Assembly (NCBI RefSeq): GCF_947581785.1
Contig: NZ_CANPVO010000013.1
Coordinates: forward strand, 124,001 to 188,000
Reading direction: 5' to 3'
DNA: 64,000 nt
Source: Candidatus Palauibacter polyketidifaciens
GTDB lineage: Bacteria > Gemmatimonadota > Gemmatimonadetes > Palauibacterales > Palauibacteraceae
The notes beneath the pieces were generated by a model. It was given only the letters and a program-made list of their open reading frames with translations. It ran no database searches and was not told the origin of the DNA. Every line of letters begins with the position of its first letter. Positions within the stretch are counted from its first letter, which is position 1. The translations under genes were made by a program, and so were the position numbers. Shown here piece after piece: positions 19,454-40,544 of this stretch.

Positions 19454-19548
19454 GCGCGGCTCCGGGTCGAGGTCCGGCCGGGGCTTGCGGCCCAAGCTTC
19501 AAAACCGGACGATTTTGCTAATCGTAACGTCTCGTGAGAGAGGACGAG

Positions 19549-20916
19549 ATGCCCTTTGAGAGCATAGATCCGACCACGGAGGAACGGCTCGCCTCGTTCC
19601 CCGCCCTCGATGCCGCCGGGATCGACGCGGCGCTCGGGCGGGCGCGGGACGCGTTCGAGGTGTGGAGGCGGGTGCCGGTGGCCGAGAGGGCCGAACGTCT
19701 TCTCGCGCTGGCGGAACTCGTGGAGCGGGGTAAGGCGGCGTACGGCCTGCTGATGACGCGCGAGATGGGCAAGCCGCTGGCCAGCGCGGTCGCCGAGGCG
19801 GAAAAATGCGCCTGGGTGTGCCGCTACTACGCGGAGCACGGGGCCGCGCACCTGGCGCCGGAGCGCTTTGAATCCACCGGCACGCACTGCTGGGTGGAGT
19901 ACCACCCCCTGGGCGCGGTGCTCGGAATCATGCCGTGGAACTTCCCGTTCTGGCAGGCCATGCGCTCCGCAGTGCCGACGGTGCTGGCGGGCAACGTCTT
20001 CCTGCTCAAGCACTCTCCCAACGTGCCGCAGTGCGCGGTCGCGCTCGAGGGACTGTTCTCGCGCGCCGGATTCCCGGAGGGCGTGTTCCAGAACGTCTTC
20101 GTCGAGGTCGAGGACATCCCCCGCGTGCTCGACGACCCGACCGTGCAGGCCGCCTCTCTCACGGGCTCCGTCGCCGCCGGCTCCGCGCTCGCGGCCGAGG
20201 CGGGACGCCGCATCAAGACGACCGTGCTCGAACTCGGCGGCAGCGATCCCTTCATCGTCATGGAGAGCGCGGACATGGATCGAGCGGTCGCGACCGCCGT
20301 CGACGCCCGCATGTGGAACAACGGCCAGTCGTGCATCGCCGCCAAGCGGATGCTCGTCCAGAGTTCGATCGTCGACGAGTTCACCGAGCGGCTCGTCGAA
20401 CGCGTGGCGGCGCTCCACGTCGGCGACCCGAAGGAGGCCGAAGTCGAAATCGGACCGCTGGCCCGCCGCGACCTGCGGGACGCGGTCGCGGAGCAGGTGG
20501 AGGCCACCGTGGCGGCCGGTGCCCGCGTGGCCACGGGCGGGCGCGTACCCGACCGGCACGGATGGTTCTACGAGCCGACCGTGCTCACGGACGTCCCGGA
20601 CGGGTCCCCGGCCACGGATGACGAGATCTTCGGTCCGGTCGCCAGCATCTTCGCGGTCGCCGACATCGACGAGGCCATCGAGCGCGCGAACGCGACCGAC
20701 TTCGGCCTCTGCTCCGCCATCTGGACGAACGACCCCGAGGAGCGGGCCCGGGCCGTCCGCGACCTGGAGGCCGGCGGCGTATTTATCAATGGGATGTCCG
20801 CCTCCGATCCCCGCGTCCCCTTCGGCGGCGTCAAACGCTCGGGCTACGGGCGCGAACTCGGCCCCCACGCGATCCGCGAGTTCGTGAACGTGAAGACGGT
20901 GTGGGTCGGCGACTGA
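19549..20916 (+). CDS. NAD(P)-dependent (succinate-)semialdehyde dehydrogenase
   Basis: 455 residues, aldehyde dehydrogenase superfamily. The catalytic Glu228 is in LELGGSDPF and the nucleophile Cys262 in NNGQSCIAAKR. The cofactor region IMPWNFPFWQ and the end motif PFGGVKRSGYGRELG are intact. The absence of an N-terminal extension and the short length match the SAD/Sad-like succinate-semialdehyde dehydrogenase subgroup. The ATG 19549 has GAGAGGA just upstream; an upstream in-frame GTG at 19534 is less likely. It is convergent with swfB and divergent from the MhpD-like gene. The specific aldehyde is inferred only at subgroup level. Confidence 0.9.
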   Translation: MPFESIDPTTEERLASFPALDAAGIDAALGRARDAFEVWRRVPVAERAERLLALAELVERGKAAYGLLMTREMGKPLASAVAEAEKCAWVCRYYAEHGAAHLAPERFESTGTHCWVEYHPLGAVLGIMPWNFPFWQAMRSAVPTVLAGNVFLLKHSPNVPQCAVALEGLFSRAGFPEGVFQNVFVEVEDIPRVLDDPTVQAASLTGSVAAGSALAAEAGRRIKTTVLELGGSDPFIVMESADMDRAVATAVDARMWNNGQSCIAAKRMLVQSSIVDEFTERLVERVAALHVGDPKEAEVEIGPLARRDLRDAVAEQVEATVAAGARVATGGRVPDRHGWFYEPTVLTDVPDGSPATDDEIFGPVASIFAVADIDEAIERANATDFGLCSAIWTNDPEERARAVRDLEAGGVFINGMSASDPRVPFGGVKRSGYGRELGPHAIREFVNVKTVWVGD

Positions 20917-20943: not shown

Positions 20944-23454
20944 TCACGGAGTCAGCGGCGACCGGTACCCTTCGCGGGAGAGGAAATCCAGATAGCCGGA
21001 GAAGGCCGCGTCGACCTTGTCCCGCGTCAGACCGAAGTCGACAAGATCGTACTTGTGCCGTTTTTCGCTTCGCCGCTGTTCGGCCTGTACCTCGAGCCAT
21101 GCATCCATGGCGGCCACGGCCTCTTCCTCCAGCGGCCAGCCGAAACGGTCGTAGATGCGGGCCAACATGGCCATCGGGTCCTCTACGAAATCGTAGAAAC
21201 TGACGTCCATCCACCGGTCTTCGAGTTCGGGGTGGCGAGTACGAAACTCCACTGCGCAATCGAGTATGCGACTCATGAATTCGAGTTGTTCCGCCCCGAG
21301 ATCTGCGGGCGGTCGCGGCGGGGCGGAGAGGTTGCGGACCCTCTCTACGAGACTGTTCCAGGATCCCATGAACTGCGCGGGTTCGCGATGGGTCTGAATG
21401 AAGAGGGCGTCGGGGTACGTTTTGATGAGCGCTTCCAGTTCAAGGAGGTGGAAGGGCATCTTGAGCAGCCACTGACCATCGCGGCCGTTTCGCCGCTGTC
21501 GCCGTTGATGGGTATAGCTCTGCATCGCGCGCCGGTGGAAGGCATAGCTCTCGCCCGCATCCCTGCCGGCGAGCCAGCCCGCGAAGCCCGGGATGTGGAA
21601 CCGCACGGTGGTGCTCCAGGCCGCAAATCCCATCCTGAGGAGTCCCAGATCCTCTTCCGGCTCGTTCACGTCAAAGTGATGCACGCCCTTGAACATGTCG
21701 ACGATCCCCGACGCGTTCAGAAGTTCCTCCGCGAAGGCCCGCCGCGGATCGTTGGCCGAGCCGGTCAGGTTGGCGTAATCGCCGCCTGCAAGGACCGGCT
21801 CGACATACTCGTAGCCGCGTAGCGTCCAGAACCTCGGGTCACGAGCCATCAGGCGGTGCAGAAAGGTCGTGCCGGTGCGGTTGATTCCGACGATGAAGAC
21901 CGGCTGCCTGACCTCCCGTTCCGCGATCTCCGGATAACGCTCACGCTCGGCCGCCAACGCCGCGTTGTTGCGCAACAGGCGCATAAAATCGAAGACGATG
22001 TCACCGTACCGTTCGGTCCGGACCCCGGCCCCCGGATCCGTAACCGCCTGCACGAGGCGTTCAAGTCCGTGGAGCTTCCAAGCGGGAAACGCCACGTCGA
22101 AGGAGACACCGTACTCCCGCGCGCACGATTCGGCTCTGCGCACGAGGTGGTCGTAGTCGAGGCGGCTCTCGGGTATGCGGTACGGCCATCGCTCGCGATG
22201 AGCCCGCAGCCAGTCGCCGGAACGCCGGAGCATGGTGTACGCGCTCGGCCACTGAATCGGGTCCGGACAATCGGCCCGCACGGCGCGGTCGCAGACTCGA
22301 AGAGACGGCGCGGTCGCGTTCCCGCTGAACCAATACGGCGCCCCGTGATCGATCAGGCTCCAGAATCCGTGGAGGGGTGACTGTTCTCCCCGCGCCAGAC
22401 AGGCCCGCTTGAACGCTTCGTACGAGACGGTCTCGTAGTACAGTCCGAAGTCGGCGAGCTGCACGTCGTGTCCCAGGGACGGATCTTCGGAATAGTGATA
22501 GATCGTGAAGCGCCGGTCGGGATTCAGCGAAATCGCCGCCATGGTGTCGGCCACGACATCGGCCGCCGCCTGGCTCCACTGCAATGTGAACCCCTCCGGC
22601 ATCCATTCCACATCCACGACCGAGGCCACCAGCCGTACGACGACATCGTCGGCATTGCCGAAGCCGGTGCTGGAGGCGTTCGCGTGCGGCAGGCGGAAGA
22701 GGGCCACGGGCACCCCGGCTCGGGCCGCGTGGAGCAGGGCCTGTTCGACCACCAGCTTGGTCCAGGGGTACCCAAGCAGGCCAAGCGGAAAAGCGCGTTT
22801 CATCGTCGCGATGTCCGGTTGCATTTGGTGCGTGATGCGACGTCCGGAATACTCGTTCGCGAAGGCGCAGAAGTACTCGGGGAAAATCCCCATGGTCGAC
22901 GTGAAGAAGATGGGCTTCAGGCGCGTCGTCAAACACAGGTCGAGCACGGCGCGGATGCTGAACGTGTTGGTCCTGCGCAGAGCGGCGTAGGAAGTGGACA
23001 GGCTCAGGCTCGCGGCAAGGTGGTAGACGGCATCGATCCGCTGGCAGAGATCCGCGAATTGGGGCGGCTCCAGGCCGAAACGCGGAAGATGGATGTCTCC
23101 CGCCAGCGCACGGATGCGCGGCGCGAGCGCGTCATCCTCGATTCCCGCCTCTTCCAGGGCTGCCCGGATGCGCGCCAGCGCGTGGTCGGAATCATCCGCG
23201 CGCACGATGCAGGTCACGGCCAGGTTCGGGTTCCGCCGCAGGAGGTCTCTCAGTAGAAAACGGCCGAGGAAGCCGGTCGCTCCGGTCAGCAGCACCTCTC
23301 GGAAGTCGGCTGGACCGGCCGGCGCGCCTGCCGCGGAACGACTGGATGCCTCGTCGATGAATCGGCGCAGCGCATCGAGATCGTGCCGGCATTGAGGCGG
23401 GAGGGTTCCCGTGAGCGTGGGAACCTCGCTGCGCAGAGTGTCCGCTTCAGGCAC
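20944..23454 (-). CDS. swfB: SwfB-like fusion: NAD(P)-dependent thioester reductase plus sulfotransferase
   Basis: 836 residues. The N-terminal half is a Male-sterility/NAD_binding_4 thioester reductase: TGATGFLG at 57-64, FFTSTMGIFPE, and catalytic GYPWTK with Tyr229 and Lys233. The C-terminal third is a Sulfotransfer_3-type domain: PAPS 5'-phosphosulfate loop PVFIVGINRTGTTFLH at 518-533, LKMPFHLLELEALIKTYPDALFIQTHREP from about 664, and the 3'-phosphate-binding serine near 698. The predicted job is to release the SwfA-bound acyl chain as aldehyde or alcohol and to sulfate it (order and substrate inferred). The GTG start overlaps swfC by 8 bases and has GGAG 6 bases upstream. Symbol follows the sponge swf cluster as I recall it. 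Confidence 0.85.
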   Translation of the reverse strand: MPEADTLRSEVPTLTGTLPPQCRHDLDALRRFIDEASSRSAAGAPAGPADFREVLLTGATGFLGRFLLRDLLRRNPNLAVTCIVRADDSDHALARIRAALEEAGIEDDALAPRIRALAGDIHLPRFGLEPPQFADLCQRIDAVYHLAASLSLSTSYAALRRTNTFSIRAVLDLCLTTRLKPIFFTSTMGIFPEYFCAFANEYSGRRITHQMQPDIATMKRAFPLGLLGYPWTKLVVEQALLHAARAGVPVALFRLPHANASSTGFGNADDVVVRLVASVVDVEWMPEGFTLQWSQAAADVVADTMAAISLNPDRRFTIYHYSEDPSLGHDVQLADFGLYYETVSYEAFKRACLARGEQSPLHGFWSLIDHGAPYWFSGNATAPSLRVCDRAVRADCPDPIQWPSAYTMLRRSGDWLRAHRERWPYRIPESRLDYDHLVRRAESCAREYGVSFDVAFPAWKLHGLERLVQAVTDPGAGVRTERYGDIVFDFMRLLRNNAALAAERERYPEIAEREVRQPVFIVGINRTGTTFLHRLMARDPRFWTLRGYEYVEPVLAGGDYANLTGSANDPRRAFAEELLNASGIVDMFKGVHHFDVNEPEEDLGLLRMGFAAWSTTVRFHIPGFAGWLAGRDAGESYAFHRRAMQSYTHQRRQRRNGRDGQWLLKMPFHLLELEALIKTYPDALFIQTHREPAQFMGSWNSLVERVRNLSAPPRPPADLGAEQLEFMSRILDCAVEFRTRHPELEDRWMDVSFYDFVEDPMAMLARIYDRFGWPLEEEAVAAMDAWLEVQAEQRRSEKRHKYDLVDFGLTRDKVDAAFSGYLDFLSREGYRSPLTP

Positions 23455-25237
23455 GTGCCGCTCCGCCGGGATCCCGGGTTTCGCCCACGAGCGGCAGGCT
23501 TCCGCGGGTCACGGGGGCCGGGTGGACCTCGGGATCCAGCGCGAGTTGAAAGGCCGCGAGGGCTTCGGAGATGCCGTCTCCGGCGTAGCGAAATTCCTCC
23601 GGGATGGCCCTCCGCCGTGCATCGGCCCGGTCGAGCGCCGCCTGCCTGATCCCGTCCTCCGCGCCCGGCGTGGGAGTCGGCTCCGGCCGGGTATGGCGGA
23701 CGGTCGCCAACTCCGAGTCCAGATATTTCTTGAATTCGCGGATCACGGTCTGCTGGCGCGTGAACTTCTCGCAGTGATGACCAGTCGCGGCAAGTCGAAT
23801 CGCCAGGGGCATCATGCGGGGATGGTCTTTGGAGACCTTCGCGACGTAGCGCGAGAACGCCGGAAGCTGGTCCTCGGTCAGGCGTCGTCGGATCCCCATG
23901 ATCCCCGCATAGAGTGCGTGCTCGCTCACGGACTTGTGGATGTGCGGCACGGGGTTGAGGTGCTCGAGCAGCGTCAGGCAGCGCTCGAAGTAGTTCTCGA
24001 GCGTCGAATCGTAGATCGTCCCGATGACCCGCAGATATCCCTCCACCAGCGTGGCCGGGTCCATCTGCGGCCTGAAGTTCAGCGAGGTGGCGTTGATCTC
24101 GATGGGCTTGTCCAGCAATCGGCCCTCCTGCTCGAGACGCGCCCACAGGTTGGTGTCCTTGAGCGCGGTCAGCAGGCCGACCAGCGCGATCGGGATCCCG
24201 GTTTCCTGAATGAAGTCGATCTGGGCGTCGAACGCGGTCTCGTCATCCTCATCGAGACCGAGAATGAAGCCGCCCTGCACCTGCATCCCCTTCTGCTGGA
24301 TCTTGCGGACGGCGGTGAACAGGTAGTTGTCGTCGCGCACGTTGATGTTCTGAGGCTTCTTCATCTTCTTGAGAGCCTTCGGATTGGGCGTCTCGATACC
24401 CAGGAAGACGGTGTCGAAGCCGGCCTCGATCATGACGTCCATCAGGTCGTTCATGCGGACGAGGTTCACGCTGGCCTCGGTAGACAGCGTAAACGGATAT
24501 CCGCGCTCCTTCTGCCACTCGGCGATCGCCGGCAGGAGACGCGTCACCTCGCGCTTGTTGCCGATGAAGTTGTCATCGACGAGGAAGAGCGGGCCGCGCC
24601 ACCCCAGTTCGTGGAGATGATCGAACTCGGCCACCATCTGCTCGGGCGTCTTCGTGCGCGACACGCGGCCGTACAGCTTGGTGATGTCGCAGAACTCGCA
24701 GTCGAAGGGACAGCCTCGCGAGAACTGGAGGCACATGGAGTAGTAGTCGCTCATGTCGATGAGGTCGAAGCGCGGAAGCGGCGTGACGGTCACATCCGGC
24801 TTTCTCGGCGCTCGATAGACCTCCTTCGCGGTGCCGTCCTCCAGGTCCTGCAGGAAGGTGGGGAAGGTCTCCTCGACCTCATCGAGGACGAAGTGGTCGA
24901 TTCCCTCCATCTCGCGGTGGAAGGTGGTGGGGTGAGGGCCGCCGGCGACGACCGGAATCCCGGCCCGGTTGCAGCGCTCGACGACCTGCTCGAGCGACGG
25001 GCGCTGGACGATCATGGTCGACGTGAAGGCGAGATCCGCCCACTCCAGATCGCGGTCCTCGAGCGAGGTGACGTTGAGGTCGACCACGCGGAGGTTGTAC
25101 CGGGGCGGGAACATCGCCGCGACGGTGAGCAGGCCGAGAGGCGGAAAGGCGGCTCGGATGCCCAGAAGGTCCAGGGCGAAGTTGTTGCCCCAGTAGGTGG
25201 GAGGGTGCCTGGGGTAGAGGAGGAGCGCATTCGGCAT
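23447..25237 (-). CDS. swfC: SwfC-like radical SAM protein with B12-type N-terminal domain
   Basis: 596 residues. The N-terminal ~150 residues resemble a cobalamin-binding Rossmann domain (VVDLNVTSLEDRDLEWADLAFTSTM, VVAGGPHPTT), though the D-x-H-x-x-G cobalamin ligand motif is absent. The radical SAM core has CPFDCEFC (Cys176, Cys180, Cys183), VDDNFIGNK and a DUF4070-like region (GGFILGLDEDD, LLTALKDTNLWARLEQEGRL). Relatives include hopanoid C-methylases and other lipid-modifying enzymes, so modification of the SwfA acyl chain is plausible but unproven. ATG starts 3 bases after the swfA stop and the end overlaps swfB, so the three genes form one translational unit. Confidence 0.85.
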   Translation of the reverse strand: MPNALLLYPRHPPTYWGNNFALDLLGIRAAFPPLGLLTVAAMFPPRYNLRVVDLNVTSLEDRDLEWADLAFTSTMIVQRPSLEQVVERCNRAGIPVVAGGPHPTTFHREMEGIDHFVLDEVEETFPTFLQDLEDGTAKEVYRAPRKPDVTVTPLPRFDLIDMSDYYSMCLQFSRGCPFDCEFCDITKLYGRVSRTKTPEQMVAEFDHLHELGWRGPLFLVDDNFIGNKREVTRLLPAIAEWQKERGYPFTLSTEASVNLVRMNDLMDVMIEAGFDTVFLGIETPNPKALKKMKKPQNINVRDDNYLFTAVRKIQQKGMQVQGGFILGLDEDDETAFDAQIDFIQETGIPIALVGLLTALKDTNLWARLEQEGRLLDKPIEINATSLNFRPQMDPATLVEGYLRVIGTIYDSTLENYFERCLTLLEHLNPVPHIHKSVSEHALYAGIMGIRRRLTEDQLPAFSRYVAKVSKDHPRMMPLAIRLAATGHHCEKFTRQQTVIREFKKYLDSELATVRHTRPEPTPTPGAEDGIRQAALDRADARRRAIPEEFRYAGDGISEALAAFQLALDPEVHPAPVTRGSLPLVGETRDPGGAARA

Positions 25238-25240
25238 GGC

Positions 25241-28200
25241 TCAGGCCGCCCCTTCCGGGAAGTGATCCTCCGGGGCGTTCGCGAACGCGGACGGGGTGCG
25301 GCGGGCCCGTGGCCGGGAGACCTCGGCGGTGCCGCCGGATCCGCCGCCGTCCGTCTCGGCCTCGTCCTCGCCGGCGGCTTCCTTGCCATGAATGATGCCC
25401 TCCGCCAGCGACAGGGACGAGGCGGTGGTCATGAGCTCGAGCGCGCTGACGCGGTAGTTGAACTCGGCCTGGATGAACGTCCCGAGTTCGGCCACGGAGA
25501 TGGAGGTCAATCCGAAACTCGACAGCGGTTCGTCCACCTCGCCGTCTTCGTGGCCGCAGAGCTCGGCGACCTTCGCGGCAATCTGCTCCACGACGCTCTC
25601 GAGCGTGAGTTCTCCGCCGGAGCCCGCCTCGAAGGCATCGTGATTGTGCATCACCCGCCCGATCCGCATGTAGTCCGGGAAGTCGACGGTCCACGCCGGA
25701 CGCTCGAAGAGCGAAGTGATCAGGTGGGGTCGGTCGGAAAGCGCACGCAATGCGTAGTCGAGGTTCGCGATGGCGAGGTCGGAGCTCACCGGCGGCATCC
25801 CCGCGGCGCGCATCATGCGCAGCACCGGAAGACTGCGGGCGGCCATGCCCGCGTCCGCCACGGCGGGCATGTTGTAGGCCAGGCAGGGCAGGCCCTGCCG
25901 GTGTCGGGCCGCGGCCAGCCCGTCCAGGAAGCCGTTGGCCCCGCTGTAGTTGATCTGTCCCGGATTGCCCAGCATCGAGGCGGTGGACGAGAACAGCACG
26001 AAGTGGTCGAGATCGTGACCCATGGTGGCCGTGTGAAGATGAAGCGCGCCGGAGGCCTTGGGCGCGAACACCCTCTGCAGCGACTCCATCGACATGTCGT
26101 CAAGCAGGCGATCGTCCAGTGCGCCGGCGAGGTGGAACACGCCCTTGAGCGGCCGCTCGAGTTGCTGGACGCAGCGTTGAACGTCGGCTTCCACAGCCAC
26201 GTCGCCGGGCACGATGTCGATTTCGGCTTCGGCCTCCATGTAGACGAGCGCACTCGCGCGCCGGACCCACTCGGCGTCCCGGCGACGCTGGGGATCGCGG
26301 TCCATCAGCGTGAGGTGCCGCGCGCCCGACGCGACCAGGTAGGGGATCAGACGCAGCCCGAAACCGCCCAGACCGCCCGTCACGAGATAGGTGGCGTCGG
26401 GGTCGAAGAGAGGGCGGATATCGGCGATCGGGAATCCGGTATCCGTGGCGTCGTGCGGCGCCTTGAGCACCAGCTTGCCCTGATGCCCGCCCGTCGTCAT
26501 CAAACGCAGCGCCTTGCCGTAGTCCCGGTAGGAGAACACGGTGACAGGGAGCGGCGGCAGCGCACCCCGCCCCAGCAGATCCATGCACGTCTGGGAGATC
26601 TCGCGCGTCAGGTCGGGATCGTCCAGCATCAGACGGTCCACGTCGATGGCCGCGAAGCGGAGATTCTTCCGGAAGATCCGCAGCCCGAGGTCGTTGTCGG
26701 CGTAGATGTCGATCTTTCCGATTTCGCAGTGCCAGCCGCCCGGACGGAGCGCCCGTAGACAAAGTTCGATGTGCCGCCCGGCCAGGGAGTTCAGCACGAC
26801 ATCCACTCCATCGCCCCCGGTCGCCGCCAGCAGGTCGTCGTACCAGTCGTAGCTGTGCGAATCGAAGGCGCCGCGCACCCCCATCGCCAGGAGTTGCTCA
26901 CGCTTGCTTGCGCTGCCGGCCGTCGCGTAGATCTCGGCGCCCACGTGCCTTGCAAGGGCGATCGCGGCCTGCCCCACCCCACCCATCGCGGAGTGTATCA
27001 GGACGCGCTGGCCCTTCCGGAGGCGGGCCAGGTGAATCAGGGAGTAGTACGCCGTGACGTAGACCGACAGGGTCGACGCGGCCTCCTCCATGCTGAGCCG
27101 GTCCGGCTTGGCGAAGACGAGGTACTCGGGGACGACCGCGCGGTTGGCGATGCAACCGCCGGCGATGAACGCGACCCGGTCGCCGACGGTACAGTGCCGC
27201 ACCTTCGAGCCGATCCGCGTCACCGTTCCGCTCCCCTCCATCCCCACCTCGCGGCCGAGTGCCGAACGCTCGTAGGCAAGGGCGGGCAGCAGCCCCAGCG
27301 TGACCATCACGTCGCGGAAGTTGAGCGCCGCGGCTTCGACGTCGATGTGCACATCGTTCGGCCCGACGGGAGGGAGTTCGTACGTCTTCATCTGGAGGCC
27401 GGCGATCTGGCCCGGGTTGTCCAGCGTCAGCCGATACTCCGCATCGTCGCCCGCGGCCACCTGGGAGTACCGCTTCCTGATGCTGGAAATGCGCGGCGCC
27501 CACAGCCGGTTCTCCCGCACGGCCAACTCCCGCTCGCGCAGGTCGCGCCGTGCCAGCCGGGCGAGCGTCCGGAGATCATCCGCGTCGCCAAGGTCCACCA
27601 GACGAAAATCGAGCTTCGCTTCGTCGCCGACCTCCATGGCCATGCTGCGCACGGCGCCCCACAGCGCACTGCCCCGCGGGTGTTCCACGTCGAAGGCCGC
27701 GCGGCAGGTGACCACGCTGAGACGACAGACATGATTCGCGTCCGCCCGACGGGCGGACACGAGCGCCTGAACGAACCCGATGAAGTGTGCGGCCGCCCTC
27801 TCGCCGGTCGGATCATCGGGATCGGCACCGCAGAAGTAGTCGATCGCACGCAAGTCGGCCGCCTGCGACCAGGCCTCGAGCGACTCGAAGTGTCCGCTGA
27901 CGACCGCCCCGTGAGGAATGGGTCGCACGGTGTCGGGGGCGTCCAGCAGCGCGATCCAGCCGGAGGCCCAGCTTGACGGCTCCCCCAGCACCCAGCGTGG
28001 TCCCGGAAGCGGGCGGTCCGCGGTTTCGGCGTCGTGGACGTGCGGAGCCTGCAACAGCGTGGTACGCCGACCGGCCCTGACGATCGTCCACCCCTCACCG
28101 GGCTCGATGCTGTCGCCGTCGCTGTGGCGGACCAGGGCCAACCCTCCCTCGACGCTCAGGCGTTCCAGGAACTGCCAGCCATCCGAGCCGGGGAAGTCGT

Positions 28201-31200
28201 CCGATCCGTGCAGGAACATGATCTCGACGCTGCCGGGGCGAAGGAGCCCCTCGTCCGTTGAAGGCTCGGACGCCGGGTCGAGGCACTGGAAGCGCAGCGC
28301 GGCGTCCCGCTGGTTGAAGGCGTCATAGTAGCCCCGGGCCGTCTCCTCGCTGTCGCCGAGGAGCCAGAACTCGGACCGGGCTTCCGGGCGCGTCAGGTGG
28401 TCCAGACAGTCGGCCAGAATAGTCCGGTCGGGTTCCCTGGATCCGGCAAACTCAACCACATGAGCGCTGTACCCTCCGTCTCCAGCCACCCGTTCAAGCG
28501 CCGCAATCAAGGCGGCGGGCTCGATCTCCCCATCAGGCAGCCGGTCCTTGAGCGCCCTGCCTCCGGGAACGAACTTCGATTGCCAAACGACTTCGTGCTT
28601 GCTCTTCGGCAGATCGTTCCAGCGCGGATTCGAAGTAAAATACGTGTACTGTCCGATGTGGGCGATGAGATGTCCGGTGTCGCTGTCGTAGAAGCTGATC
28701 GCGCCGGCGGCTCGCTCGCCGCGCTGGACCGAGTACTGACCGCGCTCGTTCGCGTCCATCCAGTCTTCGCTGGGCCTGGTCACGTGGCACGTGATCCGCG
28801 GACCGGTGGGCGGGCGCAGGAACGTCGCCCGTTCGGCGCGCTGAGGGATGGCGAAGAGGTGGGAAGCGGTCAGGAGGTGCGACAGGAAGATCTGAAGCCC
28901 TCCATCGAGCAGCGGCGGGCACCCGACGTAACCCTCCTCCCGGCCCGTCGCCCAGAGTTCTTCGTCCATCTCGATGTCGACGATCAGTGCCCTGGATTCA
29001 GGGTCGAGTTCGAACAGCCGGATGGTCTGGAAATAGGGACCGTATTGGAAGGTCTCGCTGAGAACCGCCTCGATCCGTTCGTAGAAGTCGCTCCGCTTGG
29101 CGAAGACCGTCTCGCACGAGGAGCGGTCGATGTCCTCGAGGCGGGCCGGCACCCCGGTCGGGTGCTCGGCCTCGATCAGGGTCACACGGCCGCGGCAGTG
29201 AACCTCGCTCGTGGCGTCCACATCGTACGACCGGGACGAAATCGTGAAAGTGAACTCGTCGGACGCGGTGGGAACCGGATGCAGGGCGGTCTGCAGTCGT
29301 ACCGGCTTCCCGGGCACCGGGCACGGCTGCAGGAACTCGAGAACGTCGAAGTGAACGGGAACGCCCCCCAGTGCCTGAAGAACGAGCTCGATGTAGCCCG
29401 CCGCCGGCATGATCGCGGCGTGGTGCACGCGATGGTCCGTCAGCCAGGGAAAGTCCTTCTCCGAGAGCCGCGCCTCGAAGAGCAGGTGGTCGCTCGGCAC
29501 CCGGTGGCCCACCAGGGGGCCGTGAGAGTACTGGCCCCGCCGGACGAAAAACTCGTCGTCGGTCAGGGGATCGATCAGCGCCTGCTCGTCGCGCGGATGG
29601 CCGGGAAGGAGGTGGGCGATCGGGCGCGGCCGCGGATACTGAGCCGCAAAATCCAGGGCGACGCCGGACCTGAATAGCGAGGCAAGAGCCTGCTGAAAAC
29701 CCAGCCGGTCGTCCGAGTCCCGCTGGAGGCTCGGAATGCTGGCCGGCGTCGGCGAGGTCCGTTCAAGACACTGGGCCACCGCGGACTGGAGCGCGCTGTG
29801 AGGGGCGATTTCCAGGAACAGATCCGGACGGAATTCGCGCACGATCGTGTCGATCGCGCGCGCGAACTGCACGGGTTCGCGGATGTTCGTCCACCAGTAG
29901 GCGCCATCGAGGCGTTCCGTCCGGTCGCCGGTCACGGAGGAAACGAAGGGGACCCCGGCGTCGAATACGCAGTCATCCAGGAACGCCAGGGCTTCGCCAG
30001 CGTCGTTGTGGATGGGATCCATGGCGGAGGAATGGAACGCGATGTTCCCGGCGAGCAGCTGGTTCTGCACGTTGCGGCGGTCCAGCTCCGCCATGACCGG
30101 CCTCAACTCCGCCTCCCGACCGCAGACGACGACGCTGGCCGGTGCGTTTTCGCAGGCAATCTCCACCTGCGTCGGACGGTCCCCGCCGGGCCGAAAAGCG
30201 ACATCGAGCGAGTCGAGCACTTCCACCACGCCCGGGAGGTCGAGGCCGATCGCAAGCATCCTCCCTGACCCGGCCCTGCGCTGCTGCAGCGTCGCGCGGT
30301 GGTAGACCAGCCGCGTCGCCTCCGCGAGCGGCAGGGCCCCGGAGGCGTAGGCGGCCGCGACCTCCCCCGAACTGTGCCCGACGACGCATTCCGGATGCAC
30401 GCCCCAGGTCTTGAAGAGTTCGAAGAGGGCGCACTGGATCATGAAGATCGCGGGCTGCGCGAGCCGGACCTCGTTGAGCTCCTCCTGCGAAGCGTTGAAG
30501 CAGGCGTCGCGCAGCGAAGTGTCGGAGTGTGTCCGCCAGTGGTCTTCGACGGCGTCGACCGCCCTGCGGAAGACGGGATCGGCGTCGTAGAGCCCGCGGC
30601 CGCAACCCGCCCATTGGGTGCCCTGACCCGCGAACACCATCGCGATTCGGCGTTCACCATCGTCGGTCGTGTTGACGTTCGAGGGGTTTTCGGCGAATTC
30701 GTCGAGCGACGCGAGCAACTCCTCCCGATCTCGCACCGCGAAGGCGGTCCGGGTGGCGAAGTGCGTGCGACGGCGGCTGAGGTTGCCCGCTACCGTGTCG
30801 AGGTCGGACCCGTTCTCGGCCAGCTGTTTCCGCAGCCGCCGGGCGCCCCGCGCCAAGGCACTGGCGGTGCGCGCCGAAAGCGGGATCATGAACCCGCCCC
30901 GTGAGGCGGGATGCGACGACCAGACGCGCGGCTGCGAGGGCTGGTATTCCCGGACCACGCAATGTCCGTTGGCGCCGCCGAAGCCGAAGGAATTGATGCC
31001 GACCACCACCGGCCGGTCCGGGAACGGTTCGCATTCCGTCTGCACCTGCATCCGGCCGCCGTCGAAGTCGATCTCCGGATTCGGGACGACGAAGTTCTTC
31101 GAAGTGGGCGCGAAGGTGCGCCGCTGCATCATCAGAATCACCTTCAGCAGCGCACAGTGGAATGCCGCCGCTTCCATGTGCCCCAGATTGCTCTTCACGC

Positions 31201-32260
31201 TGGAGACCCGCAGCGGCACGTCGCGGTCGGCCGCCCCGAAGGCCTCCATGATCGCGTTGCCCTCGATGCGATCTCCGACCACGGTGCCCGTCGCGTGCGC
31301 CTCGACGTAGTCGAAGTCCTCCGGTGCGCACCCGGCGCGCGCGCAGGCCGTCCGCATCAGGTCTACCTGCGCGTGGCGGGTGGGGGCGGTGATGTAGCGG
31401 CCCTGCGCGAGCCCGGAGCTCCCGTCGGCTGCACCGGCCGCGTTGACGGCAGTCCCCTCGATGACCGCGTGGATGTGATCCCCGTCGCTCTCGGCCGCCG
31501 CCAATGGCTTGAGCGCGAAGGTGAACGCCCCCTCCGAACGGATGTAGCCGTTGGCGTCGGCGTCGAAGGAATGGCACTTGCCATCGGGACTGATAACGCC
31601 CAAGGCATTGAATGACGCGCTGAGCCGCGAAGTGCCGAGGTAGTTCACCGACCCCACGACGGCCTGTTCGCAATCGCCGCAGCGGAGCGCGGTCATGGCC
31701 GAATGGAGGGCGGTCAGGCTCGCCGAGCAGGCCGTGCAGTACGTAATCGACGGCCCCATGAGGTTGAAGTGGTACGACACCCGGTTGGCCAGCATGGCCA
31801 GGCTGATCGTCGTGACATCGAACGGACCCGCACCGTGCATGGGGCGCCAACTGGCCACGGCCGGGACCTGCGCCCCGATGAAGACGCCGGTCGAACTGTT
31901 GCGCAGTGAGTGAAAGTCCCAGCCGACGCGCTCGAAGGTCTCCCAGGAGCAATTCAGCAACATGCGCACCTGCGGATCCATCGAAAGCACCTCGTCCTGC
32001 GACAGGCCGAAGAGCTTGGGATCGATCAGCTTCTCGCCGTCCTCACGGATCAGACCTTCATGGGGACTCGCGAATCGTCCCGGACCGGAGAAACGGCCAA
32101 CCGGCCGATAGCCTCTGCCGTACCTTTCGGTCACGGGCTCCTGGACGATCTCGCGTTCACGCAGCAATCGCCAGAAGTCGGAATCCGTCAGGATCCCGCC
32201 CGGCATTCGATAGCTGTACCCCACAACCGCGACGGGGGACTCGCGCGACACGGCGGTCAT
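25241..32260 (-). CDS. swfA: SwfA-like mono-modular type I PKS/FAS (KS-AT-DH-ER-KR-ACP)
   Basis: 2339 residues. KS about 8-440 with Cys178 (CTACSAS), His322 (EAHATG), His361 (NLGH). AT about 535-850 with Ser630 (GHSSG) and AFH at 741-743, the malonyl-type motif. DH about 905-1200 with His943 and Asp1119 (LLDGGLQ); the Gly of HxxxGxxxxP is His. About 1210-1600 is a structural/pseudo-KR region without a methyltransferase SAM motif. ER about 1605-1935 with HSAMGGVGQA. KR about 1955-2180 with GGLGGFG, Tyr2105, Asn2109. ACP about 2215-2285, Ser2253. No thioesterase. It should make a fully reduced chain, released by SwfB. ATG 32260 has only a weak ribosome-binding site. Confidence 0.9.
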   Translation of the reverse strand: MTAVSRESPVAVVGYSYRMPGGILTDSDFWRLLREREIVQEPVTERYGRGYRPVGRFSGPGRFASPHEGLIREDGEKLIDPKLFGLSQDEVLSMDPQVRMLLNCSWETFERVGWDFHSLRNSSTGVFIGAQVPAVASWRPMHGAGPFDVTTISLAMLANRVSYHFNLMGPSITYCTACSASLTALHSAMTALRCGDCEQAVVGSVNYLGTSRLSASFNALGVISPDGKCHSFDADANGYIRSEGAFTFALKPLAAAESDGDHIHAVIEGTAVNAAGAADGSSGLAQGRYITAPTRHAQVDLMRTACARAGCAPEDFDYVEAHATGTVVGDRIEGNAIMEAFGAADRDVPLRVSSVKSNLGHMEAAAFHCALLKVILMMQRRTFAPTSKNFVVPNPEIDFDGGRMQVQTECEPFPDRPVVVGINSFGFGGANGHCVVREYQPSQPRVWSSHPASRGGFMIPLSARTASALARGARRLRKQLAENGSDLDTVAGNLSRRRTHFATRTAFAVRDREELLASLDEFAENPSNVNTTDDGERRIAMVFAGQGTQWAGCGRGLYDADPVFRRAVDAVEDHWRTHSDTSLRDACFNASQEELNEVRLAQPAIFMIQCALFELFKTWGVHPECVVGHSSGEVAAAYASGALPLAEATRLVYHRATLQQRRAGSGRMLAIGLDLPGVVEVLDSLDVAFRPGGDRPTQVEIACENAPASVVVCGREAELRPVMAELDRRNVQNQLLAGNIAFHSSAMDPIHNDAGEALAFLDDCVFDAGVPFVSSVTGDRTERLDGAYWWTNIREPVQFARAIDTIVREFRPDLFLEIAPHSALQSAVAQCLERTSPTPASIPSLQRDSDDRLGFQQALASLFRSGVALDFAAQYPRPRPIAHLLPGHPRDEQALIDPLTDDEFFVRRGQYSHGPLVGHRVPSDHLLFEARLSEKDFPWLTDHRVHHAAIMPAAGYIELVLQALGGVPVHFDVLEFLQPCPVPGKPVRLQTALHPVPTASDEFTFTISSRSYDVDATSEVHCRGRVTLIEAEHPTGVPARLEDIDRSSCETVFAKRSDFYERIEAVLSETFQYGPYFQTIRLFELDPESRALIVDIEMDEELWATGREEGYVGCPPLLDGGLQIFLSHLLTASHLFAIPQRAERATFLRPPTGPRITCHVTRPSEDWMDANERGQYSVQRGERAAGAISFYDSDTGHLIAHIGQYTYFTSNPRWNDLPKSKHEVVWQSKFVPGGRALKDRLPDGEIEPAALIAALERVAGDGGYSAHVVEFAGSREPDRTILADCLDHLTRPEARSEFWLLGDSEETARGYYDAFNQRDAALRFQCLDPASEPSTDEGLLRPGSVEIMFLHGSDDFPGSDGWQFLERLSVEGGLALVRHSDGDSIEPGEGWTIVRAGRRTTLLQAPHVHDAETADRPLPGPRWVLGEPSSWASGWIALLDAPDTVRPIPHGAVVSGHFESLEAWSQAADLRAIDYFCGADPDDPTGERAAAHFIGFVQALVSARRADANHVCRLSVVTCRAAFDVEHPRGSALWGAVRSMAMEVGDEAKLDFRLVDLGDADDLRTLARLARRDLRERELAVRENRLWAPRISSIRKRYSQVAAGDDAEYRLTLDNPGQIAGLQMKTYELPPVGPNDVHIDVEAAALNFRDVMVTLGLLPALAYERSALGREVGMEGSGTVTRIGSKVRHCTVGDRVAFIAGGCIANRAVVPEYLVFAKPDRLSMEEAASTLSVYVTAYYSLIHLARLRKGQRVLIHSAMGGVGQAAIALARHVGAEIYATAGSASKREQLLAMGVRGAFDSHSYDWYDDLLAATGGDGVDVVLNSLAGRHIELCLRALRPGGWHCEIGKIDIYADNDLGLRIFRKNLRFAAIDVDRLMLDDPDLTREISQTCMDLLGRGALPPLPVTVFSYRDYGKALRLMTTGGHQGKLVLKAPHDATDTGFPIADIRPLFDPDATYLVTGGLGGFGLRLIPYLVASGARHLTLMDRDPQRRRDAEWVRRASALVYMEAEAEIDIVPGDVAVEADVQRCVQQLERPLKGVFHLAGALDDRLLDDMSMESLQRVFAPKASGALHLHTATMGHDLDHFVLFSSTASMLGNPGQINYSGANGFLDGLAAARHRQGLPCLAYNMPAVADAGMAARSLPVLRMMRAAGMPPVSSDLAIANLDYALRALSDRPHLITSLFERPAWTVDFPDYMRIGRVMHNHDAFEAGSGGELTLESVVEQIAAKVAELCGHEDGEVDEPLSSFGLTSISVAELGTFIQAEFNYRVSALELMTTASSLSLAEGIIHGKEAAGEDEAETDGGGSGGTAEVSRPRARRTPSAFANAPEDHFPEGAA

Positions 32261-32339
32261 TCTACGGCCGCGACGGCTTCGGGCAGCGCCGGGCCAAGCC
32301 TGCCTTGTGCATGGATTTCATCCGCCGACCGCCGGGTGC

Positions 32340-32364
32340 AAAAAAATGCCGGGAACGACCCGGC
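32340..32364 (-). terminator. intrinsic terminator (or attenuator) upstream of swfA
   Basis: On the minus strand GCCGGG (32364-32359), loop TCGTT and CCCGGC (32353-32348) form a perfect 6-bp GC stem. After one A comes a run of seven T residues (32346-32340). It lies about 60 bases after the 91-residue gene and 80 bases before swfA. It therefore ends or attenuates transcription coming from the PAPS/efflux genes, so swfA probably has a promoter of its own or depends on read-through. No convincing -35/-10 pair is visible in 32261-32339. Confidence 0.75.
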
Positions 32365-32377: not shown

Positions 32378-32424
32378 TGTGACGGGCCGTTACGCGGGCT
32401 CCGGAACCGGATTTTGCCGCCGAA

Positions 32425-32700
32425 TCAGGAGCCTTCGGCGGACTTCCGCACGACCTGGTCGGCGGCGTCGAACAGCTTCTTGCGCCATTCCTTTCGCCGA
32501 TTCCGGAACGCTTTCACCATCTCCCACAGCGCGTCGCGGACCTGCTCCACGATTTCCTCGCGCGACTCCTCCGACAGCGTCGTGCCGCTCGTGAACTCGT
32601 ACTTCTCAATCGCGAAATCAGCGATGTCGAGAATGTTGTCTCCGACGACGGCGAAATCGACCGCGTTCCTCATGGCGGGGGCTTCGCGTGGTTCGTTCAT
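32425..32700 (-). CDS. small helical protein of unknown function between permease and swfA
   Basis: 91 residues from the ATG at 32700 (AGGA about 8 bases upstream favours it over the ATG at 32709, which has none). The protein is charged and mainly helical: FAVVGDNILDIADFAIEKYEF, then LSEESREEIVEQVRDALWEMVKAFRNRRKEWRKKLFDAADQVVRKS. It has no signal peptide or membrane segment. It lies 75 bases after the permease gene and just before the terminator, so it ends the upstream transcription unit. I do not recognise it. Location suggests a role linked to the sulfation/efflux genes, but nothing in the sequence proves this. Confidence 0.6.
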   Translation of the reverse strand: MNEPREAPAMRNAVDFAVVGDNILDIADFAIEKYEFTSGTTLSEESREEIVEQVRDALWEMVKAFRNRRKEWRKKLFDAADQVVRKSAEGS

Positions 32701-32775
32701 CCGCTTCATCCTCGTGGAAGGGGTGGTTGGGGGTTGCTGATCCTCCTGCCACAGAATGAATGGTCGCGGGCGGAC

Positions 32776-34557
32776 TTAGTCAACCGTCTTCACGTCACCC
32801 TGGCGCTGAGTCCAGGCGCGGTTCACGTGCACGGTCAGGACATCGGCGTTGTGGTACTGGTGGTGCTTGACCGATGAGGCGTGATGCCGCAGCAGCGCCA
32901 GCGACAGGTCCCGTTCGCTCGTCGGGTCGGGACGGTCCCCGAGCACGGCCAGCTGGTTCTCCAGGTTGCCCTCGTGCGTCGCCGCGGTGAGCTCCAGCCC
33001 GGCGCCGAAGCGGAGGTTCCGGGCCACGACGCGCAGTCGTCGCTCCCTGGGGGCGGGGGCCTGTTCCTCCGTCTCCTGGGGCAGGAGGCTCAGGAGCGCC
33101 TCCTCTGCCGCCGCCCGCAGGCGGTCCGTGGCCTTGCCGCTCCACTTGTACCGGTCCGCAAAGTCCTGGAGGAACCTGTCGAGTTCCGGGAGGTTCTCCG
33201 GGCGCAGCGCCACCTCGATCCTGTGGCGGCGGGGTCCGGTCACGTCGAGGAACAGGTTCAGCAGCAGGATGGACAGCCCGCCCACGGTGAGACCGTTCGC
33301 CAGCATGCGGCCCATTGGCGTGGCGAGGTAGGCGGGGAAGATCGCCTGGAACTGGACTCCGGCCCCGATCCAGAACGCCAGGCCCGCGATCAGCGAATAC
33401 TGCCGGTCGATCCCCTCCTGAAAGAGGATCCGCATGCCCTGTACGAAGATGAGACCGAAGACGACCATAATGTAGGCGCCGAGCACCGGCGCCGGGATCG
33501 ACAGGATGACGGCGGTGATCTTCGGCACGAAGGCGAGGGCGATGAAGCCGGCCCCGATGACGACGCCGACTCTCCGGGCGGCGACGCCGATGCCGCTCGC
33601 GAGCGCGATTCCGGCGATGTACGGCCACGGCGGCAGCACGCCGGCGAAGCCGGACAGGAGCGTGCCCGCCCCGCAGGCGGCGACGGACCCCTGGACCCGG
33701 CGGAAATCGACCGCCCGCGGCTCGCGCCGGGAGAGGTGCTGCATGCGGACGTTGTCGCTGACCTGCCGGATCGTGATCACGAAGGACACGAAGAGAAACC
33801 CGGGCAGGAGCAGCCAGAAACTCGCGTCGAAGCTCAGATCGAGACCGAAGGCCGGGGGAGTGGGGATCCCGATCCAGCGGGCCTCCGCCACGCGTCCGAA
33901 GTCGAGAATCCCGAAGATGGCGGCGGTCACGCAGCCGGCGGCGATCCCGATGACGGCGTTCCAGGCCCGCACCCACCGTTTCCCCCGGAGCAGAAGGCCG
34001 ACGACGCACAGCATGGTGACCGCCGCGACGGTGGGGGCCGCGGCCGGCGGCGCGTTCTCCGGCACCCGCGTGAGCATGGCGAACGCCAGCGGCATGATCG
34101 TCACCGCCACGAGCGCCGTCAGCGTGCCCGACACGACCGGCGTGATGATGCGCCGGAGCAGCGCCAGGCGGGACGCCAGGACGAGTTGGCACAACCCCGC
34201 GACGAGCACGAGCACCCCCAGCAGCGCCGGGCCACCCGCGACGAGCGCGAGCGCGCCGACCCCGATCGAAGCCCCCGAGGCGCCCATGACGGTCAGCGTT
34301 CCTCCGCCGATGCCGGCGACACGCCTGGACTGGACGATCGTGAGCAGGCCGCCGATCACCATGCTCGCGAAGATCGCCCAGCGCAGGTAGTCGGGGCTCT
34401 GGTCCGCGACGCGCGCGACGATCGTCGTGACCACCACCAGGGGCAGGCAGACGAGGATTGCCGTCTGCGCGCCGATCACGAGGCTCATCGCGCGCGGCGG
34501 GCGTTCGTCGGCCGCGAACCGCAGCTTCGCGACGTCCGAGAGGGGTCCGTTCGCCAT
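32776..34557 (-). CDS. NCS2 (xanthine/uracil permease-like) transporter with C-terminal cytoplasmic domain
   Basis: 593 residues. The first ~450 hold about 12-14 hydrophobic segments with NCS2-like order (AMSLVIGAQTAILVCLPLVVVT near the start; ITPVVSGTLTALVAVTIMPLAF; LSGFAGVLPPWPYIAGIALASGIGV; VLGAYIMVVFGLIFVQGM). The last ~135 residues are soluble, with RPENLPELDRFLQDFADRYKWSGKATDRLRAAAEEALLSLL followed by a beta/alpha region, reminiscent of an RsbW/HATPase_c_2-like fold. It lies 13 bases after cysNC, so import of sulfate (NCS2 shares its fold with SulP) is tempting, but nucleobases or other anions are equally possible. Confidence 0.75.
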   Translation of the reverse strand: MANGPLSDVAKLRFAADERPPRAMSLVIGAQTAILVCLPLVVVTTIVARVADQSPDYLRWAIFASMVIGGLLTIVQSRRVAGIGGGTLTVMGASGASIGVGALALVAGGPALLGVLVLVAGLCQLVLASRLALLRRIITPVVSGTLTALVAVTIMPLAFAMLTRVPENAPPAAAPTVAAVTMLCVVGLLLRGKRWVRAWNAVIGIAAGCVTAAIFGILDFGRVAEARWIGIPTPPAFGLDLSFDASFWLLLPGFLFVSFVITIRQVSDNVRMQHLSRREPRAVDFRRVQGSVAACGAGTLLSGFAGVLPPWPYIAGIALASGIGVAARRVGVVIGAGFIALAFVPKITAVILSIPAPVLGAYIMVVFGLIFVQGMRILFQEGIDRQYSLIAGLAFWIGAGVQFQAIFPAYLATPMGRMLANGLTVGGLSILLLNLFLDVTGPRRHRIEVALRPENLPELDRFLQDFADRYKWSGKATDRLRAAAEEALLSLLPQETEEQAPAPRERRLRVVARNLRFGAGLELTAATHEGNLENQLAVLGDRPDPTSERDLSLALLRHHASSVKHHQYHNADVLTVHVNRAWTQRQGDVKTVD

Positions 34558-34570
34558 CAGCGATCCTCCG

Positions 34571-36427
34571 TTACGGGAGTCGGGAGAGCTTGTCCGTCAG
34601 CAGCTCCACGCATTCTTCCGGGGAGAGCGTCTCCGTGTCCAGGCGGAGGTCGGGGCGTTCGGGCCGTTCGTAGGGACTGTCGACTCCCGTGAAGTTCCGG
34701 ATCTCGCCCCTGAGCGCCTTGGCGTAGAGGCCCTTCGGGTCGCGTTCCGCACACGCCTCAAGCGATGCGTCCACATGAACTTCCATGAATTCGCCGGGCT
34801 CGAACAGGCTGCGGGCATAGTCGCGTTCCGACCGGAAGGGGCTGATGAAGGCAACGATCACGATCAGGCCCGCGTCGACCATGAGGCGGGCGACCTCCGC
34901 TACCCGCCGGATGTTCTCCACCCGGTCCGCTTCGGTGAAACCCAGATCGCGGCACAGGCCATGGCGCACGTTGTCGCCGTCCAGAAGGTACGTATGCCGC
35001 CCCTCGATGGTCAGGCGGCGGTCGAGCAGGTTGGCGATGGTCGACTTGCCCGAAGCGGACATCCCGGTCAGCCACACGCATTGCGCGCGCTGGAGCTTGA
35101 GCCGCGAGCGGACCTCCTTCGACACGTCCAGATGCTGCCATTTCACATTCGCCGCCCGCATGAGCGGGAAGAGGATCGTGCCGGCCGCGGCGGTCGCGTT
35201 CGTGGCCCGGTCGATCAGGATGAAGCCGCCCAGCGCGCGTGACTCGTCGAAGGGCGCGAAGGGGACGGCACGGTTGGTCGCGAGGTTCACGGTGCCGAGG
35301 TCATTTGATTTCAGGACGGAGGCGGCCAACTGGTTGCCGTTGGATACGTCCAGCCGGTGCCTGATCCGGGTGACGGCGGCGCCGACTTCCCGTGAGTGGA
35401 GCTTCATCACGTACGGCCGACCCACGGCGAGAGGCTCGTCGTGCATCCAGACGAGGCGCGCCTGGAACTGGTCCGCCACCCCCACGGGTTCGTCGGCGTC
35501 CACGACGACGTCGCCCCGCGTGACATCGACGTCGGGAGCCAGCGTCAACGTCACGGCGTCGCCGCGGCCGGCGCGGTCGCGGGTTCGGTTCCCCACGAGG
35601 ATCGACGCCACGCGGCTCTCGGTTCCGGCGGGCGAGATGCCGACGGCATCGCCGACCGCCACCGTGCCGCCGGCCACCCGTCCGCAGTATCCGCGAAAGT
35701 CGGCATGCGGCCGATTCACATACTGGACCGGCATCCGGAAGGGCCGGCCGGCGGGGGATTCCTCGACGTCCACGGTCTCGAGATGGGCGAGCAGCGTCGG
35801 ACCCGCATACCAGGGCGCCGACGCGCCGTTTCGAGTGAGGTTGGCCCCGGTCAGCGCCGAAACCGGAATCGCCTCGACCGCAGCGAGACCGATCTCGTCG
35901 GCGATCGCGCGGTAGGAGGTCCGGATCGACTCGAAGATGCCCCGGTCCCATTCGACGAGATCCATCTTGTTCACGGCGAGAACGACGCGGCGGACGCCGA
36001 ACATGGCCACGATCCGCGTGTGCCGCGCCGTTTGGGGCAGCACGCCCTTGCGGGCATCCACTAGGACGACGGCCAGGTCCGCGGTCGAGGCGCCCGTCGC
36101 CATGTTGCGCGTGTACTGCTCGTGGCCGGGCGCGTCGGCCACGATGAACCGGCGGCTCGGCGTCTCGAAGCTCCGGTACGCGACATCGATCGTGATGCCC
36201 TGTTCGCGCTCGTCCCGCAGTCCGTCGACGAGCAGGGCGAGATCGGTTTCCGTCCCCTGCGTGCCGTAGCGGACCGAATCCCGTTCGAGGCGCCTCAGTT
36301 CGTCCGAAAAGACCTGCCGGCAGTCGTACAGCAGTCGGCCGATGAGGGTGCTCTTGCCGTCGTCGACGCTGCCGCAGAGCACGAAGCGAAGGGTCGCCGG
36401 CACCGGCGGCGGCATCGGCGGCGGCAT
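34571..36427 (-). CDS. cysNC: sulfate adenylyltransferase GTPase subunit fused to adenylylsulfate kinase (CysN/CysC)
   Basis: 618 residues. The N-terminal part is the CysN GTPase: G1 GSVDDGKST, GITIDVAYRSF, DAPGHEQYTRN, NKMDLV, then the EF-Tu-like beta domains (PVQYVNRPHADFRGYCGRV). The C-terminal ~165 residues are APS kinase: P-loop GMSASGKST at about 455-463, DGDNVRHGLCRDLGF, and FISPFR at about 528-533 with the catalytic serine. With CysD it converts sulfate and ATP to APS and then PAPS, the sulfuryl donor for sulfotransferases. Its ATG overlaps the cysD stop (TGATG). The fused form is typical where PAPS is used for sulfation. Confidence 0.93.
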   Translation of the reverse strand: MPPPMPPPVPATLRFVLCGSVDDGKSTLIGRLLYDCRQVFSDELRRLERDSVRYGTQGTETDLALLVDGLRDEREQGITIDVAYRSFETPSRRFIVADAPGHEQYTRNMATGASTADLAVVLVDARKGVLPQTARHTRIVAMFGVRRVVLAVNKMDLVEWDRGIFESIRTSYRAIADEIGLAAVEAIPVSALTGANLTRNGASAPWYAGPTLLAHLETVDVEESPAGRPFRMPVQYVNRPHADFRGYCGRVAGGTVAVGDAVGISPAGTESRVASILVGNRTRDRAGRGDAVTLTLAPDVDVTRGDVVVDADEPVGVADQFQARLVWMHDEPLAVGRPYVMKLHSREVGAAVTRIRHRLDVSNGNQLAASVLKSNDLGTVNLATNRAVPFAPFDESRALGGFILIDRATNATAAAGTILFPLMRAANVKWQHLDVSKEVRSRLKLQRAQCVWLTGMSASGKSTIANLLDRRLTIEGRHTYLLDGDNVRHGLCRDLGFTEADRVENIRRVAEVARLMVDAGLIVIVAFISPFRSERDYARSLFEPGEFMEVHVDASLEACAERDPKGLYAKALRGEIRNFTGVDSPYERPERPDLRLDTETLSPEECVELLTDKLSRLP

Positions 36428-40300: not shown

Positions 40301-40544
40301 TCACGCGGTCGACGCCCTGGATGCCCGTGATCCGCTCCTCGACCCGCCGCACGATCGCCTGTTCGACTTCGTCGGGCGACGCTCCGGGGTACTGGACCTG
40401 TACCTGGATCGTGTCGAGGGAGATCTCGGGGAACGTCTCCTGGGGCAGGCTGATGAGGCTCACGAATCCCGCCAGGATGATCAGCACCATCAGCAGGTTC
40501 GCGGCGACTCCATGCTTGGCCATCCACCCGATCGCCCGCCTCAT
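37332..40544 (-). CDS. RND-family efflux pump, inner-membrane subunit
   Basis: 1070 residues, standard length for AcrB/MexB-type pumps. It starts [30 protein letters not shown], contains [19 protein letters not shown], the mid-protein membrane bundle ([54 protein letters not shown] with the proton-relay aspartates DD), and the second-half counterpart [21 protein letters not shown]. The ATG at 40544 overlaps the adaptor stop (ATGA), and its own stop overlaps the cysD start. It should drive proton-linked export with the adaptor and outer-membrane protein; the substrate is unknown, but its coupling to sulfation genes is notable. Confidence 0.93.

Follow-up and report, generated by a model that had tools for sequence, protein, structure and literature searches.

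The published swf loci PS11G3, PSA11D7, and POR_0547-0550 are marked by the motifs HATGT, DPQ[IV]R, IAFH, and GHSSGE, by a QCALVEL-like motif, and by the fusion of a reductase with a sulfotransferase (R-ST) (PMC3908369). The R-ST fusion is carried by SwfB, and a radical SAM protein, SwfC, accompanies it except in PSA11D7. PS11G3 has a POR_0546-like small gene and a permease upstream, and a SupE-like permease has been reported beside its swfA gene (PMC3908369). An alkyl sulfate product, including methylation by SwfC, was proposed by Della Sala in 2013, and heterologous expression of swfABC in E. coli produced nothing new (PMC3908369). A poribacterial source of swf, which the original prediction for the present locus still named, was withdrawn in 2014 (PMC4245539); swf has been recorded in Nitrospirota, Latescibacterota, and Acidobacteriota in a 2022 study (PMC9426513) and in 'Thalassonella' in a 2023 study (PMC10227082). 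The sup system (supA) resembles swf, by description, as a mono-modular PKS widespread in sponge symbionts, and the swf papers treat sup and swf as separate KS groups (PMC3908369, PMC4245539). In Cryptosporidium parvum, CpFAS1 is a type I FAS/PKS whose chain is released by a C-terminal thioester reductase, as proposed for swf. The R domain of CpFAS1 prefers C20-C26 acyl-CoA, which provides a functional precedent for a type I FAS reductase (PMC2995488), and R and ST domains are contiguous in two coccidian proteins (PMC3908369). Unlike SwfA, CpFAS1 is multimodular and eukaryotic, and it is likened to the swf system by description rather than by alignment. No characterized swf product or bacterial alkyl-sulfate R-ST system was found in the open-access literature.

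The locus examined here lies in a window (the whole stretch of DNA that was analyzed) of 64,000 nucleotides. The source genome (3.2 Mb, 97% complete) belongs to a Gemmatimonadota genus, and its nearest named relatives are Gemmatimonadales SB0661_bin_41 (L003) and Candidatus Palauibacter denitrificans (L006). On the minus strand, the order of transcription is cysD, cysNC, an NCS2-type permease gene, a small-protein gene, swfA, swfC, and swfB (Table 1). The gaps between successive genes are -1, 13, 66, 167, 3, and -8 bp, and the seven genes form one tight operon (~20944-37335). The original prediction had placed a complete swf locus at 20944-32260; swfA, swfC, and swfB are intact there, but the true unit is larger and extends upstream to cysD. 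The gene order A-C-B was read correctly (gaps of 3 bp for A-C and -8 bp for C-B). As a special feature of the window, on the other hand, that order does not stand, since POR_0547-0550 has the same arrangement; neither it nor the alkyl sulfate idea is new, as both are in the 2013 paper (PMC3908369). What separates the window from the published loci is its Gemmatimonadota host and the presence of cysD and cysNC in the operon, neither of which is listed for the published loci.

Table 1. Features of the swf cassette and its flanks, in window coordinates
Feature	Position	Strand	Description
Aldehyde dehydrogenase (ALDH)	19534..20916	+	Convergent; cassette border, core gene
swfB	20944..23454	-	836 aa, GTG start; thioester reductase (~50-350) and PAPS sulfotransferase (~500-836)
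swfC	23447..25237	-	596 aa; B12-binding radical SAM protein with DUF4070
swfA	25241..32260	-	2339 aa; one-module type I PKS/FAS, KS-AT-DH-ER-KR-ACP, from Pfam and motifs
Small two-helix protein, fourth swf gene	32425..32709	-	~94 aa; POR_0546 / ORF19 counterpart by position
NCS2/UraA-fold permease	32776..34557	-	Conserved soluble C-terminal domain
cysNC	34571..36427	-	Fusion of ATP sulfurylase subunit 1 and APS kinase, PAPS-making; NF004035 904 bits, cut-off 715
cysD	36427..37335	-	ATP sulfurylase subunit 2
RND (AcrB-type) efflux pump	37332..40544	-	Upstream flanking core gene
Membrane fusion protein of RND pump	40541-41860	-	Flanking core gene
Outer-membrane efflux protein of RND pump	41867-43900	-	Flanking core gene

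The upstream start of cysD is likely a CTG codon that overlaps the RND stop, and the mechanical list of open reading frames begins the gene at a GTG (37245). The RND pump gene was considered as a cassette member, as it lies on the same strand and overlaps cysD, yet it is also present in swf-negative congeners and was assigned to the core. Farther out, genes for a molybdopterin oxidoreductase, Fe-S/NrfD, and nitrate-reductase-delta-like proteins (12837-19498) and, on the opposite flank of the cassette, CO-dehydrogenase-type genes (46073-49842) show conserved synteny.

According to Pfam, SwfA comprises, in order, KS, AT, DH, ADH-type ER, KR, and PP-binding domains, and has neither a thioesterase nor a methyltransferase domain. 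The KS domain contains DPQVR (95), TACSAS (176), HATGT (322), and SNLGH (357), and the AT domain contains QCALFEL (609), GHSSGE (628), and IAFH (740). These are followed by LLDGGLQ (1117), GGVG in the ER (1760), TGGLGGFG (1961) and YSGAN (2105) in the KR, which is intact by these motifs, and GLTSI (2250) in the ACP. Every published swf mark is present in the window, with one residue changed where QCALFEL replaces QCALVEL, and the domain order of SwfA is that of PS11G3, PSA11D7, and POR_0547-0550. HATGT rather than HGTGT is found in 23/23 swf KS rows, whereas the other type I KS rows with a readable motif have HGTGT and never HATGT; the window KS likewise has DPQVR in contrast to the usual DPQQR. 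Among 298 Gemmatimonadota genomes, a swf KS occurs in 34 at 70-100% identity (and as one further fragment), and all remaining type I KS domains are at most 42% identical.

A KS tree places the 23 swf rows, drawn from Gemmatimonadota, Alphaproteobacteria, Acidobacteriota, Verrucomicrobiota, and one MAG labelled Rhodothermaceae, on one side of a branch with SH-aLRT support of 100 and a stem of 1.17. The published swf and supA sequences were left out of this tree, the link to PS11G3, PSA11D7, and POR being made by the published motifs and gene layout. Full-length homologues of the swf proteins, at ~50-100% identity, occur in many genomes, and the locus is therefore not a product of chance. Judged by its sequence, the window holds a genuine swf locus. 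The original prediction had assigned the KS-AT-DH-ER-KR-ACP protein, the R-ST fusion, and the radical SAM protein to the swf family and had proposed KS phylogeny as a check; HATGT/DPQVR agree with the assignment, and the window KS falls inside the fully supported swf clade with its published signatures. In one locus of the family (L007, from the MAG labelled Rhodothermaceae), assembly error or decay has left swfA and swfC in several separate frames, and swfB is nearly intact. The source genome also encodes a separate PKS (L123, G000:C2:1-20000) with at least three KS domains in open reading frames of ~1540 and 3470 aa, and this PKS has relatives across the swf-positive families.

SwfB contains an NAD_binding_4 domain and a Sulfotransfer_3 domain (E-value 2.3e-33), which are contiguous by Pfam, by alignment, and in the predicted fold, a model of moderate quality (mean pLDDT 68). 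Residues were compared in 13 homologous loci from five nominal phyla, down to 50% identity. In the reductase, the NADPH loop T57-G64 (TGATGFLG), S186/T187, Y229, and K233 are invariant, and SwfB has both the TGxTGFxG loop and the Ser/Thr-Tyr-Lys set of MxaA-like thioester reductases. In the sulfotransferase, R526, G528, T529, T530, H592, R690, and S698 are invariant; they include the 5'-phosphosulfate loop (RTGTT) and the Arg/Ser pair for the 3'-phosphate (R690, S698). The original prediction of an intact reductase and PAPS loop thus held, with Tyr229, Lys233, TGATGFLG, and RTGTT in the stated places and invariant or nearly so in the 13 loci, and the PAPS residues whose alignment it had offered as a check (the R526-TGTT loop, R690, and S698) do align and are conserved. 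The solved structure closest to the R domain is the terminal reductase of MxaA from the myxalamid system (~26% identity; sequence E-value 1.9e-34, fold E-value 3e-17), which is the last domain of a PKS-NRPS and has no sulfotransferase fused to it. The ST domain is closest to the mycobacterial STF1 (2zq5; sequence E-value 1.7e-40, fold E-value 6e-13), with STF9 (2z6v) also among its closest solved structures, both standalone proteins with substrates that are not comparable by sequence. Within the window, swfB (21300-23700) has 79-91% nucleotide identity to the conspecific L003 and its flanks have 94-100%; it looks like a recently imported allele.

From these features a pathway can be proposed in which SwfA would build and largely reduce an acyl chain, iteratively, on its own ACP, with extension from malonyl-CoA suggested by the IAFH motif. 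The R domain of SwfB would use NADPH to convert the ACP-bound chain to an aldehyde and then to a primary alcohol, and the ST domain would sulfate the released hydroxyl with PAPS, which CysD and CysNC would make from sulfate. SwfC would introduce a radical, cobalamin-dependent change in the chain, most likely a methylation, as an optional step, and the permease would most likely transport sulfate or another anion. The pathway would end in a long-chain alkyl sulfate, which may be branched. We give a probability of roughly 0.6 to the reading that the seven-gene cassette makes an alkyl sulfate by reductive release to an alcohol followed by PAPS-dependent sulfation. The alkyl sulfate reading of the original prediction gains support from the KS clade, the PAPS residues, and the cysD and cysNC genes of the operon, the chemical step itself being presumed. 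We infer the pattern of reduction, the length of the chain, the substrate of the sulfotransferase, and release as the alcohol rather than the aldehyde; a different hydroxyl along the chain, or some other acceptor, could also receive the sulfate.

One such hydroxyl would be internal. Sulfation is an established activation step in the biosynthesis of curacin A and was raised for swf by its discoverers (PMC3908369), and the intact KR of SwfA implies that beta-hydroxyl intermediates exist. The sulfotransferase would then modify an internal (beta) hydroxyl while the chain is bound to the ACP, the sulfate acting as a leaving group or being retained, and the R domain would release an aldehyde or alcohol with an internal sulfate or an alkene. 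However, with its DH and ER domains SwfA is expected to make a reduced chain, and the ST domain resembles STF1/STF9, with no CurM/OLS-type chain among its PDB sequence matches at an E-value of 0.001. The CurM/olefin-synthase ST-TE system also needs a thioesterase, and, as the original prediction had noted, none is detected by Pfam in SwfA, SwfB, or the operon, which leaves decarboxylative elimination without its partner. Sulfation of an internal hydroxyl is thus considered unlikely.

A second alternative concerns the fate of the product. The closest solved structure to SwfA is mycocerosic acid synthase (9d2y, E-value 4e-225) and its best NCBIfam profile is the sulfolipid-1 synthase Pks2, both of them lipid builders, and the strong conservation and spread of swf across phyla would fit a structural or interaction lipid. 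The product could accordingly be a structural sulfolipid, in which the sulfated part is built into a bigger membrane lipid or a capsule, instead of a free alkyl sulfate. Yet the cassette contains no acyltransferase, glycosyltransferase, or similar assembly gene, and release by the R domain would give an alcohol and not an acyl donor, so that incorporation into a larger structure seems quite improbable.

SwfC has B12-binding, Radical_SAM, and DUF4070 domains by Pfam and a CPFDCEFC cluster motif (176) that is kept in its homologues. A B12 enzyme needs added cobalamin when it is produced in E. coli. SwfC was not found in the swf-positive genomes G071 and G075 and is therefore optional, not essential to the core chemistry. 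The small-protein gene lies directly upstream of swfA in 13/15 database loci with enough upstream DNA, the two alphaproteobacterial loci L013 and L016 being without it; the 2013 tables list its counterpart, POR_0546/ORF19, but do not comment on it (PMC3908369). It is present three times in the Verrucomicrobiae locus L019, and in L015 and L079 it appears to be joined to a STAS-like domain, while apparent N-terminal fusions in L008, L009, and L062 were rejected as open-frame noise. The predicted model is a two-helix hairpin, for which Foldseek gave no fold match better than an E-value of 1.7, and it is a guess that the small protein is a partner or regulator of the permease.

The permease was also considered as a SulP sulfate transporter, but its profile match is to NCS2 and not to SulP. 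The residues that align with Glu241 and Glu290 of UraA are Arg and Ala, and from these substitutions sulfate or another anion is the most likely cargo. The permease gene adjoins cysNC even where swf is located elsewhere (L063, L070, L072). Its soluble C-terminal domain is possibly RsbW/HATPase-like. Neighboring genes have STAS-fused relatives, which hints that transport may be under STAS-type control.

In the source genome (G000), CysNC is encoded nowhere but in the operon, and the operon CysD is the sole protein of the PAPS_reduct family (PF01507). CysD is present in 11/11 swf-positive members of the genus vs. 1/5 of those without swf, and cysNC adjoins swf in the congeners examined. In the census of 298 Gemmatimonadota genomes, APS kinase occurs in 33/34 swf-positive genomes and ~90/264 others (Fisher p = 3e-13, with kinship ignored and genome counts that are not independent). 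Sulfite reductase (PF01077) was absent from the 17 genomes tested, which include G000 and the whole genus sample, in a search that matched 11/14 control genomes; across the phylum, 1/34 swf-positive genomes (G152) has it. With no sulfite reductase and PF01507 only as CysD, the source genome does not qualify for assimilatory sulfate reduction.

The site of the cassette can be followed in congeners that lack swf. In G003, G005, G013, and G015, the RND gene adjoins the convergent ALDH gene, and cysD, cysNC, the permease, the small gene, and the swf genes are all missing between them. G015 has a clean deletion scar, in which the last RND codons are gone and the remainder is joined to the ALDH stop, and the junctions of G003, G005, and G013 hold 300-600 bp of other sequence. 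The seven-gene cassette has thus been gained or lost as one unit. G274, from another family (f6), has all seven genes within 16.4 kb but in a different order and orientation (cysD+ cysNC+ small+ facing swfC- swfB- swfA- permease-). Outside the source genus and G274, cysDNC is mostly unlinked, on another contig, or 7-31 kb from swf. In the source genus, PAPS synthesis belongs to the swf unit, and real sulfation is supported because cysD and cysNC sit in the swf operon, come and go with swf, and do so in a genome without sulfite reductase. Within this clade, PAPS is not reserved for swf, since G013 and G015, which lack swf, encode a standalone APS kinase. That cysD-cysNC instead serve sulfur assimilation or a general PAPS supply, their linkage to swf being incidental, would suit the looser arrangement elsewhere and the other sulfotransferases of several congeners, but it is very unlikely given 0/17 genomes with sulfite reductase, CysD as the sole PAPS-reductase-family protein, the absence of the cassette as a unit, and the rearranged but complete gene set of G274.

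Other sulfation genes are found in the genus. A standalone Sulfotransfer_3 protein of the source genome (L076, G000:C15:257591-258499) is 30% identical to the ST domain of SwfB, adjoins DUF1214, SDR, and Polyketide_cyc2 genes, and is present in most congeners; it may share PAPS with SwfB. Two further loci (L064, G011:C90; L065, G012:C31) combine cysDNC and sulfotransferases with MPAB/Lcp-type oxygenases; one of them has a P450-sulfotransferase fusion, and L064 is near an NCS2-type permease (42% identical).

At the site occupied in the window, congeners carry swf either in the order A-C-B (the window type, with SwfA ~95% identical) or in the order C-A-B (SwfA ~64%), between flanks of 88-98% identity. 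The swf of the window type is more similar to that of a different genus (G061/G062), with SwfA at 88% and CysNC at 71-73%. A single clade for the genus (G010 included) is rejected for SwfC (p-AU 1e-46). The CysNC tree, on the other hand, holds the genus together (support 94/96). These trees indicate that swf is exchanged horizontally among sponge symbionts while the sulfate genes stay.

As far as the open literature shows, the linkage to PAPS synthesis, the empty sites, the missing sulfite reductase, the conserved fourth gene, and the exchange of swf cassettes inside a single Gemmatimonadota genus are new; the 2023 paper on Palauibacterales makes no mention of sulfate, PAPS, or sulfotransferases (PMC10469786). 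The swf family is one of the two PKS families that dominate sponge metagenomes, its product has been elusive since 2013, and withdrawal of the poribacterial assignment reopened the question of its source organism. Sponges also yield aliphatic sulfates, which are bioactive but rare and for which no ecological role has been proposed (PMC6780655). Tentatively, the unit of selection may be an entire pathway to a sulfated lipid that brings its own sulfate activation, perhaps together with sulfate uptake and a control of the permease by STAS or the small protein. The core of this pathway would be reshuffled among phyla of sponge symbionts, and its product class, bacterial long-chain alkyl sulfates, would explain part of the sponge aliphatic sulfates. 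The genes for the small protein and the permease, cysD, and cysNC are four cassette genes beyond the swfABC set whose expression failed. With the complete swf operon now located in a Gemmatimonadota genome that is 97% complete, where it includes PAPS synthesis and where sulfite reductase is absent, the alkyl sulfate proposal becomes a sharply defined, testable prediction.
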